64,000 bases of DNA from positions 32,253-96,252 of the forward strand of contig JAFTWA010000005.1 in assembly GCA_017465565.1 (NCBI GenBank). Reading direction: 5' to 3'. The translations under genes were made by a program, and so were the position numbers. Under the pieces are notes generated by a model that worked only from the letters and a program-made list of their open reading frames with translations, did not search any database and was not told where the DNA came from. This document shows positions 39,997 through 48,294 of this stretch, in pieces (position 1 is the stretch's first letter; the number at the start of each line of letters is the position of its first letter). Origin of the DNA: Tyzzerella sp. GTDB lineage: Bacteria > Bacillota > Clostridia > Lachnospirales > Lachnospiraceae.

Positions 39997-40872
39997 TTAA
40001 TTTTTTATGCTGACTCTCGCATTACAAGGAATCGATGACGTTATAAATGCATTCGCTCCAATGACCGAATCATGACCTATTACGGTCTCTCCACCTAAAA
40101 TGGAGGCCCCTGCATATATAGTTACATTATCTTCTATCGTAGGATGCCTCTTCTTGCCGTGCAGTTTCTGTCCTTCTCTCGTCGATAAAGCCCCTATGGT
40201 TACTCCCTGATAGATTTTTACATTATTTCCAATCTCGGCTGTCTCGCCCACAACGATTCCCGTTCCATGGTCAATGAAAAAATATTCTCCAATTGTTGCG
40301 CCCGGATGAATATCGATTCCTGTCTTCGTATGCGCGTATTCTGTCATAATTCTCGGTATAATAGGCACACCAAGCAAGTGTAATTCATGTGCAATTCTAT
40401 TTACCATAATTGCAAACAGCCCTGGGTATGAAAATATAATTTCTGGTTTGTTAAACGCTGCCGGGTCGCCATCATATGCGGCCTGTAAATCTGTTTGAAT
40501 CAATTCTCGTATATCAGTTAACTTTTCCAAAAATTGTAAAGAACGCTTTTCCCCTTCAAGCAATAACACTTTCTCGCATTTCTTTTCATACTCAGGCAAA
40601 AATTTGAGCACAATGGCAATCTGCTCGCTAAGGTTGTATAACACATCCTCCAGCTGCATTGACAGATTGTTTCTCACTGTGTAAATACGGTAATTCTCAT
40701 TTTCAAAATATCCCGGGAAAATAATATTTCGTATTTGCATGATTATCTTAATGATAACATCCTTATTAGGGTGTATATAATTTTCTACTACATCAATATC
40801 TCTTCCCCGCTTATAATCATCCATTATTTTTTCAACAAGGTAACTAACATCTTTTTCAAGTCTATGTGCCAT
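39997..40872 (-). CDS. cysE: Serine O-acetyltransferase (EpsC/CysE type)
   Basis: SAT makes O-acetylserine from serine and acetyl-CoA, the first step of cysteine synthesis. The 291-residue protein has an alpha-helical N-terminal half and a C-terminal left-handed beta-helix with hexapeptide repeats: GIDIHPGATIGEYFFIDHGTG, VVGETAEIGNNVKIYQG and GGETVIGHDSVIGANAF. It resembles the EpsC branch common in anaerobes. ATG 40872 is chosen for GAAGGAGAG; it is preceded by an attenuator with a Cys-rich leader peptide. cysK, 7 kb away, has the same leader. Confidence 0.92.
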   Translation of the reverse strand: MAHRLEKDVSYLVEKIMDDYKRGRDIDVVENYIHPNKDVIIKIIMQIRNIIFPGYFENENYRIYTVRNNLSMQLEDVLYNLSEQIAIVLKFLPEYEKKCEKVLLLEGEKRSLQFLEKLTDIRELIQTDLQAAYDGDPAAFNKPEIIFSYPGLFAIMVNRIAHELHLLGVPIIPRIMTEYAHTKTGIDIHPGATIGEYFFIDHGTGIVVGETAEIGNNVKIYQGVTIGALSTREGQKLHGKKRHPTIEDNVTIYAGASILGGETVIGHDSVIGANAFITSSIPCNARVSIKN

Positions 40873-40897: not shown

Positions 40898-40924
40898 AAA
40901 AAACAGATACCATCATGGTACCTG
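40898..40924 (-). terminator. Attenuator terminator upstream of cysE
   Basis: CAGGTACC and GGTATCTG form an 8-bp stem with one G-U, followed by TTTTTT on the minus strand. It ends 26 bp above the cysE start, so it must be read through for expression. Its left arm (GGTACCATGATG, 40911-40922) can instead pair with CATTGTGATACC (40953-40964). Confidence 0.88.
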
Positions 40925-40973
40925 CTTCTATTACAAATAAACTTCAAAATAAGGTATCACAATGCATAAGAAA

Positions 40974-41051
40974 TTAGGCTGTATTCATACATACAACCTG
41001 ACAACAACACATCATAACACTTACTAAATTATTAAGTTGCGCCTTTCTCAT
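40974..41051 (-). CDS. Cysteine-rich leader peptide of cysE
   Basis: A 25-codon gene on the minus strand starts at ATG 41051, with GAGAGGGG 8 bp upstream, and stops at TAA 40974. It begins MRKAQLNNLV and ends MMCCCQVVCMNTA. Three consecutive TGT codons (41001-41009) sit just after GTGTTATGATG, which can pair with the antiterminator arm. A stem GTTGTAT/ATACAGC (40978-40997) lies within the codons. The last 13 residues are identical to the cysK leader, a strong sign it is translated. Confidence 0.88.
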   Translation of the reverse strand: MRKAQLNNLVSVMMCCCQVVCMNTA

Positions 41052-41097
41052 GACATTTTCCCCTCTCACCCATTCATTAATAGGTCAAATTTGTTAT

Positions 41098-41126
41098 ATT
41101 ATATTCATTTTCAAAATAATTGTCAA
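41098..41126 (-). promoter_or_regulatory. Sigma-A promoter of cysE leader
   Basis: TTGACA (41121-41126) and TATAAT (41098-41103) are separated by 17 bp on the minus strand, placing transcription start near 41091, about 40 nt before the leader peptide ATG. Both boxes match consensus perfectly. Confidence 0.9.
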
Positions 41127-41202: not shown

Positions 41203-41208
41203 AACACA

Positions 41209-41500
41209 AAACCGATGAGAAAGAGTAAGTAAGTCTTATCAATTTTTCCCCAGAGAGCTGTAGATGGTGAGATTACAGTGAAAAACATAGGACCGAATGG
41301 ACTTTCGAGGGCAATCAGAACAGGAATGAACATTCCTCAGTATGTGCGACGGAGCATGACTCTCCGTGAACAAAGGTCTGCATATGATGGTATGCGTAAA
41401 GTGGGCGTATTATAGTGATACGTCAAGCCGGGTGGCACCGCAGGTTGATTTTTCATCCTGTCCCAGCAGTTTCTACTAACTGGGACAGGATTTTTTTGTT
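41209..41500 (+). ncRNA. T-box riboswitch, specifier UGG (tryptophan)
   Basis: The leader has the T-box layout: GAGAAAGAGTAAGTAAG at the start, AGAGAGCTGTAGATGGTGAGA in stem I, a specifier loop CGAATGGACT with TGG at 41298-41300, and the conserved GGGTGGCACCGC (41430-41442). The bulge TGGC would pair with a tRNA ending GCCA, consistent with tRNA-Trp. A strong terminator, ATCCTGTCCCAG/CTGGGACAGGAT (41455-41491) plus seven T's, completes it. Uncharged tRNA-Trp should allow read-through. Confidence 0.92.
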
Positions 41501-41620
41501 TCAATTCTGATATTTGACATATGGCGCTCTGCTAAAGCGAGAAGTAGCGAAGCGAATTCGAGCTTAATGGCTGAACTGAAACATTTCTTGTCCCACACAT
41601 TCAAAAAGGAGGCAAAAGTT

Positions 41621-42997
41621 ATGTCAGAAGAAAGAAAAATCCCTTACAAAATTTACTTAGAAGAAAGCGAGATGCCAAAGGCATGGTATAATCTCCGTGC
41701 TGATATGAAAAATAAACCAGCACCACTTCTTAATCCTGGCACATTAAAACCAATGACCGCAGATGAACTGAAACCTGTGTTCTGCGAAGAACTCATTAAG
41801 CAAGAGTTGGATGATACTACTGCTTATTTTGAAATTCCACAGGAGATTCAGGACTTTTACAAAATGTATCGTCCTGCACCTCTAGTAAGAGCATATTGTC
41901 TAGAGAAAAAGCTACAGACACCTGCAAAAATATATTACAAATTTGAAGGAAACAATACGAGTGGAAGCCATAAGCTCAATTCTGCAATCGCCCAGGCTTA
42001 TTACGCAAAGAAACAAGGTCTCAAGGGTGTAACTACCGAAACTGGAGCCGGCCAATGGGGAACTGCTTTATCTATGGCTTGTTCTTACTTTGACTTAGAC
42101 TGCAAAGTCTACATGGTAAAAATATCTTATGAGCAAAAACCATTCCGCCGCGAAGTGATGCGAACTTATGGTGCGTCAGTGACTCCGTCTCCTTCTATGG
42201 AAACAGAAATTGGTAAACAGATTCTTGCGAAACATCCAGGTACCACTGGAAGTCTTGGATGTGCGATTTCAGAAGCGGTAGAAGCTGCTACTACTTCCGA
42301 AGGCTACCGTTATGTATTAGGAAGTGTTCTGAATCAGGTACTTTTGCATCAATCCGTAATCGGTTTGGAAACCAAAGCGGCATTAGATAAATATGGTATC
42401 GAGCCTGACATTATTATTGGCTGCGCCGGCGGCGGCTCAAACCTCGGTGGACTCATTGCTCCATTTATGCGAGAAAAGCTGCGTGGGGAAAAAGGCTACC
42501 GCATCATCGCTGTGGAACCTGCTTCCTGCCCTAGCTTTACTCGTGGTAAATATGCGTATGATTTCTGCGATACTGGTATGGTTTGTCCTCTTGCAAAAAT
42601 GTATACTCTTGGAAGTGATTATATACCTGCTCCTAACCACGCAGGTGGTCTTCGTTATCACGGCATGAGTTCTACTCTTTCACAGTTATACGATGACGGT
42701 TTAATGGAAGCCGTTTCTGTAAAACAAACTGAAGTATTTAAGGCTGCTGAAGAATTCGCAAGAGTAGAAGGTATCTTACCTGCACCAGAAAGCTCACATG
42801 CAATCAAAGTTGCGATTGATGAAGCCCTCAAGTGTAAAGAAACCGGAGAAGAAAAGACAATCGTATTCGGTCTTACCGGAACAGGATATTTTGATATGAC
42901 AGCATACGAAAAATTCCACGATGGAAAAATGGATAATTATATTCCAACTGATGAAGAAATTGCAGAGAGTCTTTCTAAATTACCTGTCGTAGAATAA
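41621..42997 (+). CDS. trpB: TrpB-like PLP enzyme (TrpB2 type)
   Basis: The 458-residue protein belongs to the TrpB2 branch of tryptophan synthase beta chains: longer than TrpB1, with KFEGNNTSGSHKLNSA (PLP lysine), TETGAGQWGTA, and CAGGGSNLGG (phosphate loop). TrpB2 can make tryptophan from indole and serine and often stands alone without TrpA, as here. The start at 41621 follows AAAGGAGG; an ATG 18 codons earlier lacks a ribosome site. It is controlled by the upstream UGG T-box. Confidence 0.92.
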   Translation: MSEERKIPYKIYLEESEMPKAWYNLRADMKNKPAPLLNPGTLKPMTADELKPVFCEELIKQELDDTTAYFEIPQEIQDFYKMYRPAPLVRAYCLEKKLQTPAKIYYKFEGNNTSGSHKLNSAIAQAYYAKKQGLKGVTTETGAGQWGTALSMACSYFDLDCKVYMVKISYEQKPFRREVMRTYGASVTPSPSMETEIGKQILAKHPGTTGSLGCAISEAVEAATTSEGYRYVLGSVLNQVLLHQSVIGLETKAALDKYGIEPDIIIGCAGGGSNLGGLIAPFMREKLRGEKGYRIIAVEPASCPSFTRGKYAYDFCDTGMVCPLAKMYTLGSDYIPAPNHAGGLRYHGMSSTLSQLYDDGLMEAVSVKQTEVFKAAEEFARVEGILPAPESSHAIKVAIDEALKCKETGEEKTIVFGLTGTGYFDMTAYEKFHDGKMDNYIPTDEEIAESLSKLPVVE

Positions 42998-47097: not shown

Positions 47098-48039
47098 CTA
47101 CAATTCAGTATTAAATAATGGAGTAGATAAGTAACGGTCTCCTGAATCAGGTAACAATGCTACAATCGTTTTTCCTTTATTTTCTGGTCTGTTTGCAAGA
47201 ATTGCTGCAGCTTTTAATGCAGCTCCAGAAGAAATACCAACCAGAATGCCCTCGCTCACTGCAAATGCTTTTCCTTCTGCAAATGCTTCTTCATTTTCAA
47301 TCGTAATGACTTCATCATAAATCGTTGTATTGAGTACATCCGGAACGAATCCTGCTCCGATTCCCTGAATTTTATGTGGTCCCGGTGTTCCTTTTGAAAG
47401 CACTGGGCTTCCTGCTGGCTCTACTGCTACAATCTTGATATCCGGATTTTGTTCTTTTAAATATTCTCCAACACCAGTGATTGTTCCACCTGTACCAACT
47501 CCGGCAACAAAGATATCTACTTTACCTTCTGTCTGGTTCCAGATTTCTGGACCTGTTGTGGCTTTGTGAACAGCCGGATTTGCCGGGTTTATAAACTGAC
47601 CCAAGATAACAGAACCAGGGATGGATTCTTTCAATTCCTCTGCTTTCGCAATTGCTCCCTTCATTCCTCTTGAACCTTCTGTAAGTTCTAACTTCGCACC
47701 ATAAGCCTTTAAGAGATTTCTTCTCTCTACACTCATTGTGTCTGGCAAAGTGAAGATAGCCTGATATCCTTTTGCTGCTGCGACTGCGGCAAGACCAATT
47801 CCCGTGTTTCCAGATGTAGGTTCAATAATCGTTGCTCCTGGCTGTAAAATACCTTTCCTTTCTGCGTCTTCAACCATAGCTAACGCAATACGGTCCTTTA
47901 CCGAACCTGCCGGGTTAAGATATTCTAATTTTGTAAGTATGGTTGCCTCTGTTGCATTTGCTTTTGCCGCATAACGGCTAGCCTTTAATATTGGTGTTCC
48001 TCCAACTAATTCTACTGAACTTTCTACGATTTTACCCAT
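47098..48039 (-). CDS. cysK: Cysteine synthase A
   Basis: CysK combines O-acetylserine and sulfide to make cysteine. The 313-residue PLP enzyme has [11 protein letters not shown] with the Schiff-base lysine (about 42), [12 protein letters not shown], the [10 protein letters not shown] phosphate loop and GISSGAAL. The ATG at 48039 follows TTGGAGGG; the longer frame upstream runs through the attenuator hairpin. It shares its leader design with cysE. Confidence 0.95.
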
Positions 48040-48081: not shown

Positions 48082-48111
48082 AAAAAAAGCAGATACCATT
48101 ATGGTACCTGC
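48082..48111 (-). terminator. Attenuator terminator upstream of cysK
   Basis: GCAGGTACC and GGTATCTGC form a 9-bp stem with one G-U, followed by seven T's on the minus strand, 43 bp above the cysK start. Its left arm GGTACCATAATG (48097-48108) can instead pair, 11 of 12, with CATTATGATACC (48138-48149). Confidence 0.9.
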
Positions 48112-48158
48112 AATTGTTACGTTCAAAATTGTCACAAGGTATCATAATGCATACGAAA

Positions 48159-48236
48159 CTAAGCTGTATTCATACATACAACCTGACAACAACACATCAT
48201 GATACACATTGAATTATTTGTGAGTCGTTTCTTCAT
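48159..48236 (-). CDS. Cysteine-rich leader peptide of cysK
   Basis: A 25-codon gene starts at ATG 48236, with AGAGGAG 9 bp upstream, and stops at TAG 48159. It begins MKKRLTNNSMCI and ends MMCCCQVVCMNTA. Three consecutive TGT codons lie at 48186-48194, directly after GTATCATGATG (48195-48205), which can pair with the antiterminator arm. The GTTGTAT/ATACAGC stem (48163-48182) is identical to that in the cysE leader. Five of its 25 residues are cysteine. Confidence 0.9.
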   Translation of the reverse strand: MKKRLTNNSMCIMMCCCQVVCMNTA

Positions 48237-48265
48237 AGCATTATGCTCCTCTCTTTTTTTACTCT

Positions 48266-48294
48266 ATTGTATTCACACAATAAAAAAATGTCAA
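48266..48294 (-). promoter_or_regulatory. Sigma-A promoter of cysK leader
   Basis: TTGACA (48289-48294), a 17-bp spacer and TACAAT (48266-48271) on the minus strand, about 30 bp above the leader peptide start. Confidence 0.85.

Follow-up and report, generated by a model that had tools for sequence, protein, structure and literature searches.

The window, by which we mean the whole stretch of 64,000 nucleotides of Tyzzerella sp. (Lachnospiraceae) analysed here, carries on its minus strand the genes for serine O-acetyltransferase (cysE) and cysteine synthase A (cysK), each preceded by a leader open reading frame (ORF) of 25 codons (Table 1). A preliminary description of this DNA had reported the two frames (41051-40974 before cysE and 48236-48159 before cysK) and credited them with good ribosome sites; both frames are indeed present, and the Shine-Dalgarno-like sequences GAGAGGGG and GAGAGGAG lie upstream of them. 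The cysE leader is also readable as a longer ORF from a GTG, and we took the ATG as its start because a Shine-Dalgarno sequence precedes it. The CysE protein scored above the cutoff of the NCBIfam EpsC serine acetyltransferase model (158 vs. 150) and below that of the NCBIfam model named cysE (165 vs. 211).

Table 1. Features of the cysE and cysK leader regions in the window.
Feature	Position	Strand	Basis
Promoter of cysE leader, TTGACA-17-TATAAT	41098..41126	-	12/12 matches to consensus
Shine-Dalgarno-like GAGAGGGG of cysE leader ORF	41060..41067	-	read from sequence
cysE leader ORF MRKAQLNNLVSVMMCCCQVVCMNTA, 25 codons, ATG start	40974..41051	-	ORF reading
cysE leader strand 1b GTGTTATGATGTG, potential pairing with 40966-40954	41008..41020	-	sequence and folding
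cysE leader hairpin AGGTTGTAT...ATACAGCCT, immediately 3' of Cys codons	40976..40999	-	folding, comparison
cysE leader strand 3 ATTGTGATACCT, putative antiterminator 5' strand	40952..40963	-	pairing test, alone p=0.09
Intrinsic terminator of cysE leader	40899..40929	-	sequence
cysE, serine O-acetyltransferase	39997..40872	-	NCBIfam
Promoter of cysK leader, TTGACA-17-TACAAT	48266..48294	-	11/12 matches to consensus
Shine-Dalgarno-like GAGAGGAG of cysK leader ORF	48246..48253	-	read from sequence
cysK leader ORF MKKRLTNNSMCIMMCCCQVVCMNTA, 25 codons, ATG start	48159..48236	-	ORF reading
cysK leader strand 1b GTATCATGATGTG, potential pairing with 48151-48139	48193..48205	-	sequence and folding
cysK leader hairpin, immediately 3' of Cys codons	48161..48184	-	folding, comparison
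cysK leader strand 3 ATTATGATACCT, putative antiterminator 5' strand	48137..48148	-	pairing test, alone p=0.022
Intrinsic terminator of cysK leader	48089..48111	-	sequence
cysK, cysteine synthase A	47098..48039	-	TIGR01139, 437.9 bits (cutoff 351)

Both transcripts have the same order of parts, i.e., promoter, Shine-Dalgarno sequence, leader ORF, hairpin, strand 3, intrinsic terminator and gene; the flanking promoters and terminators were absent from the preliminary description. The window leaders have what is expected of an attenuator, namely an ORF close to the promoter that has a Shine-Dalgarno sequence and consecutive codons for the end product, and an intrinsic terminator between this ORF and the gene. 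Strand 1b of the cysE leader consists of the codons preceding the first Cys codon and part of that codon. Both leader ORFs end in MMCCCQVVCMNTA, with 38 nt identical between the copies, and strand 3 and the terminator are also common to both with few changes. Specifically, a 32-nt part of the shared stretch occurs exactly twice in the window and was not found in 100 shuffles. An out-of-frame ATG lies 5 bases ahead of the leader start (AATGNNATG) in cysE, cysK, L001, L003, L036 and L060, and this shared region is complementary to part of strand 3. Elsewhere in the window, a T-box leader at 41206-41466 on the plus strand (79 bits; Rfam gathering score 93; E 2e-16) precedes a TrpB-like ORF (41567-42997) and is divergent from the cysE leader. 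The sole SAM riboswitch above the gathering score in this genome lies at C23:64723-64819.

We propose that each window leader very probably acts by ribosome-mediated transcription attenuation, with charged tRNA-Cys as the signal that is read. Leader-peptide attenuation for cysteine, as suggested in the preliminary description, is well supported by the anatomy of the leaders and by comparison with sulfur genes of other genera. From the parts that can be read in the sequence (ORFs, promoters, terminators, hairpin, cognate antiterminator complementarity and association with the genes) the following course can be envisaged, in which ribosome stalling, timing, release and the direction of the response are presumed. 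RNA polymerase would begin at the promoter, with a ribosome translating the 25-codon leader behind it. When Cys-tRNA is scarce, the ribosome would wait in the CCC run and mask both strand 1b and the hairpin's 5' arm; strand 3 (AUURUGAUACCU) could then pair with the 5' arm and loop of the terminator (AGGUACCAURRU), the terminator would come too late to form, and cysE or cysK would be transcribed. When Cys-tRNA is ample, the ribosome would complete the leader and depart, strand 1b or the start-codon region would capture strand 3, and the terminator would form and end transcription. About half of the leaders that we compared may use a more direct off state: their stop codon is placed inside strand 3, so that the finishing ribosome would mask this strand.

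In the cysE, cysK and metQ leaders, strand 3 matches the 5' arm and loop of its terminator (AUURUG-A-UACCU with AGGUA-C-CAURRU in the two window leaders), and the pairing is unbroken although letters of the loop differ among the three. When antiterminators were compared with their own shuffles, 12 of 30 leaders had p<0.05, including cysK (p=0.022), and 18 failed singly, including cysE (p=0.09); the combined p over the 30 leaders was 1e-11, a value inflated by their relatedness. The antiterminator is also present in leaders of unrelated sequence: L053 and L070, which are near duplicates, gave p of 0.012 and 0.008. Matching strand 3 with cognate or swapped terminators of 24 leaders (cysE, L003, L036, L010, L052 and L053 were omitted as near copies or members of the same type) yielded none as good in 20,000 permutations, with the cognate terminator ranked top for only 5 of the 24 and below tenth for 4. 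In these tests and in the ribosome-folding test below, terminator ends were placed by eye and four leaders in which no terminator was seen (L037, L043, L044, L104) were left out. As a set, the leaders thus have an antiterminator that engages the terminator 5' arm, and the two structures exclude each other.

To place the ribosome along the leaders, we used constrained folding of 16 leaders hand-picked from the 30. Averaged over these leaders, the antiterminator probability was 0.29 in free RNA, 0.26 when the ribosome occupied the stop codon and 0.57 when it occupied the start codon (window leaders, 0.00 and 0.04). A single ribosome stalled at the last Cys codon gave 0.49, and a stalled ribosome together with a queued one gave 0.79. 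With a stall at the last Cys codon, the value for cysE was 0.08 when 30 nt before the start codon were folded and 0.64 with 44 nt, and that for the metQ leader 0.62 and 0.10, respectively; the stalled state therefore depends on the length of 5' RNA folded. A queued ribosome raised the stalled-state values to 0.84 for cysE and 0.94 for metQ. The antiterminator of L036 and L170 was unresponsive to ribosome position in these folds, and that of L012 dropped with queueing. In full-length equilibrium folds of the cysE, cysK and metQ leaders the terminator always forms, and the switch must therefore be kinetic.

With regard to the off state, the leaders fall into different arrangements. Of the 30 leaders, 16 have the stop codon inside strand 3 as placed by RNAduplex, and 8 have a strand 3 that ends at the stop codon, often as ACC-UGA; a ribosome at the stop codon brought the antiterminator to 0.00 in 10 of the 16 folded leaders. 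In the cysE, cysK, metQ and L153 leaders the stop codon lies 12 nt ahead of strand 3, and the antiterminator remained at 0.88-0.95 (0.90 and 0.88 in the window's two) when the ribosome sat there, so that their off state needs release of the ribosome. When a ribosome was placed at the start codon, pairing of strand 1b with strand 3 reached 0.96 in cysE, 0.99 in cysK and 0.91 in metQ. These folds are consistent with an off state of the window leaders in which the released ribosome would let strand 1b or the start region take strand 3. A scheme in which a stalled ribosome favours the antiterminator and a finished one the terminator fits many relatives in folding, and the window copies only if the finishing ribosome leaves.

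The preliminary description had also noted that the two peptides share identical ends after diverged N-terminal halves, and had raised the possibility that the nascent peptide itself is sensed. The pattern holds (the 38 nt are exact), and a MMCCCQVVCMNTA end acting as an arrest peptide for cysteine, metal or redox state would account for it, as it would for the metQ leader of another genus, which has the same 13 C-terminal residues. Among 13 homologous leaders, however, the residues that follow CCC vary (QVVCMNTA, QTVYMNTV, QTVWNMV, KAVCNNMV, ITEWMNSV), several leaders replace the fourth Cys by Y, W or S, and unrelated leaders at the same gene have only the Cys run in common, so that the C-terminal conservation across relatives expected of an arrest peptide is lacking. 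What is kept is the encoded RNA hairpin 3' of the Cys codons, in which 97.2% of cells are paired in the 13 leaders compared with at most 48.9% when it is slid. We consider peptide sensing very unlikely and, because the residues vary while the hairpin is kept, the identical ends of the window copies are better explained by RNA structure and recent copying. Covariation in the hairpin alone is modest (2 pairs changed on both sides, in 4 cells; 7 of 500 shuffles were as high). Hairpin and terminator together are 91.3% paired and have 21 double-change cells, compared with a shuffle mean of 8.7 and none of 500 shuffles as high, all of these counts being made without regard to the relatedness of rows.

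Among 80 named cysK loci, 11 have a Cys-run ORF upstream of the gene, for which we required CCC, CCMCC or CYCC with an ATG and a Shine-Dalgarno sequence within 350 nt of the gene; the pattern was picked after upstream ORFs had been viewed, L043 was left uncounted, and 4 of the 80 loci offer only 206-261 nt of upstream sequence. Such ORFs were absent from the antisense strand (0/80) and from other windows of the same loci (0/1686), and 50 shuffles gave a mean of 0.0 (0.04 without the Shine-Dalgarno rule). The peptides before cysK are very dissimilar (MRHRKRMCCCSKGRC, MTMRCCCRCCSTYE, ...MCCMCCMCSTC...), and their common feature is the Cys run. CCTA..TAGG-like inverted repeats, which may resemble CymR boxes, occur near the leader promoters of L001, L003, L010, L036, L037, L043, L044 and L060.

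These comparisons bear on two other ways in which the leaders could operate. A conserved RNA that binds a metabolite or a protein, with the leader ORF incidental, would be in keeping with structured leaders that have alternative pairings; we give this scarcely any credence, since a Cys run occupies the corresponding place in leaders of unrelated sequence, both TGT and TGC serve as Cys codons (30 and 9, respectively, in the 13 homologous leaders, which were selected for the Cys run and so have 39/39 Cys codons by construction), and Rfam families (T-box, S-box and others) gave no match at either window leader. Alternatively, the leader could govern access to the ribosome site of the gene or to Rho, similar to what has been proposed for Actinobacteria. 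Four short Cys-rich ORFs before cysK (L037, L043, L044, L104) have no terminator visible by eye, which would suit such control, and M. smegmatis cysteine genes are reported to be under translation attenuation (PMC13236596). For the window leaders we regard translational or Rho-dependent control as highly improbable, given their clear intrinsic terminators ahead of the gene and their antiterminator strand. Attenuation by a ribosome that reads Cys codons is the reading we retain.

In a sample of 397 family genomes, Cys leaders were read in 20 other Lachnospiraceae genera; the genes behind them are cysK, metN/metQ, cystathionine lyase/synthase-like genes and others. With no more than 3 mismatches allowed, a pattern search gave hits in 4 of the 200 family genomes covered: our own (two copies), G161 before cysK, G074 before metQ, and G086, where the match sits in an apparent coding sequence and was rejected as chance. 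Model R1 matched 65 of 397 family genomes at E<=0.1, and most of the matched loci inspected had no Cys-run ORF. Model R2, built on 15 leaders (which match by construction) with no gene information, matched 28 of the 397 at E<=0.01 and, across our own genome, only the two window copies below E=3. By reading, 21 of the 28 genomes have a Cys leader ORF (10 seeds, G329 with the same peptide as a seed, and 10 new); 19 of them have CC or longer, G087 has CMC, and G045 has a Met-rich leader with two separate Cys. No Cys leader ORF was found at the other seven R2 matches (G148, G172, G182, G240, G283, G325, G347). The new leaders precede cysK (G286), metN (G045, G087, G110, G308), cystathionine lyase/synthase-like genes (G108, G300), an amidohydrolase (G162), an amino-acid ABC permease (G127) and a rhodanese/DsrE2-like gene (G298); these names are NCBIfam best matches, mostly under curated cutoffs (the amidohydrolase and the permease domain are above), and those for metN of G045 and G110 and cysK of G286 were assigned by eye. 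In a sample of the class, R2 matched 7 of 391 genomes, i.e., our own, G329, G108, G691 (from another family, with a Cys-run leader) and three without a Cys run. The G691 leader (R2 E 1.4e-4) has a weak terminator, and nifH, above its NCBIfam cutoff, begins ~510 nt past the leader stop. A second leader of G161 (L170) precedes a nifB-like gene, with an Rrf2-like ORF upstream on the opposite strand.

Non-start Met makes up 11.7% and Cys 14.9% of residues in 30 leaders. Leaders of methionine-related genes are richer in Met than those of cysK/cysE (16.5% vs. 9.9%; p=0.026 for 8 vs. 15 leaders, a value that ignores relatedness), and this higher share suggests that some leaders may read both Met and Cys charged tRNAs.

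Conservation of the frame in relatives, which the preliminary description had called for, was found in those 20 other genera but not within the genus: cysK and cysE matches are present in all 10 genus genomes (own included), and both a pattern search and an ORF scan around the two genes found no CCC-type leader in any of the 9 congeners. At L118, a CC pair is encoded by an ORF lying 260 nt upstream of a congener's cysK; this ORF falls inside another apparent gene and was discarded. The congener G202 has the nearest cysK and cysE, which are adjacent there and preceded by a promoter and terminator closely resembling those of the window, with no leader ORF. We infer that the leader was lost in G202 and that the window's two copies arose as cysE and cysK separated. 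An attenuator-like terminator with no Cys-run ORF left stands before cysK in both G202 (L117) and G347 (L167), and these are possibly decayed leaders. Our own genome has a second cysK (contig C31, L126), 85% identical, directly behind another gene and without a leader. On a cysK protein tree of 86 rows, the 12 leader rows (L043 not labelled as one) require 10 changes, at least 7 of them forced by well-supported branches, and 43 of 500 shuffles were as low as 10; leader presence is therefore patchy and hardly clustered.

Taken across the family, these observations raise the possibility, which we put forward tentatively and at somewhat less than even confidence, of a sulfur amino-acid regulon of leader-peptide attenuators in Lachnospiraceae. 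Cys leaders would serve cysE/cysK, and Met+Cys leaders, reading both charged tRNAs, would serve methionine uptake and transsulfuration genes; they would have been repeatedly gained and lost, and would come in two wirings, with the stop codon inside the antiterminator strand or earlier with a separate recapturing RNA strand.

Control of cysteine genes in Firmicutes is usually ascribed to CymR, S-boxes and T-boxes. Attenuators of the trp/his type in Proteobacteria have leader codons for the end product, hairpins, an antiterminator and a terminator, as here, and differ in lineage and amino acid. The uORFC-8-2 motif before cysS in Rhodobacterales, for which ribosome-mediated attenuation has been predicted, likewise combines tandem Cys codons in a short ORF with RNA stems and a terminal U-run that can be read as an intrinsic terminator (PMC8632094); the present leaders belong to another bacterial class, precede biosynthesis and uptake genes (cysE and cysK in the window) instead of cysS, and have Cys runs of up to five, the comparison of structures being a coarse one. 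Actinobacteria have Cys-codon leaders before cys genes or cbs without a conserved terminator (PMC1262725), and mycobacteria have Cys-rich uORFs (PMC4633059). Runs of Cys codons in short ORFs are common to these and our leaders, whereas Rho or translation attenuation has been suggested there and intrinsic terminators are found here (PMC1262725, PMC4633059, PMC13236596). In the Mycobacterium ilvB1 attenuator, a ribosome that has arrived at the stop codon hides the antiterminator and so lets the terminator form (PMC13236596). About half of our leaders are predicted to switch off by this logic; ilvB1 differs in its branched-chain amino-acid codons and belongs to another phylum. In bacilli, hisS*/hisZ stand behind a His leader peptide, which is likewise a classical Firmicutes leader peptide where a T-box might be expected, there for histidine (PMC2965389). 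Within the portions of open-licence PMC papers covered by our search, we found no Cys leader attenuators in Lachnospiraceae. The logic is thus that of the classical attenuator, and the lineage and gene set appear to be new as far as this search extends. In a common gut family, attenuators of this kind would provide a further cysteine sensor, one based on translation and recurring in many genera, and the two leader wirings offer a natural comparison.
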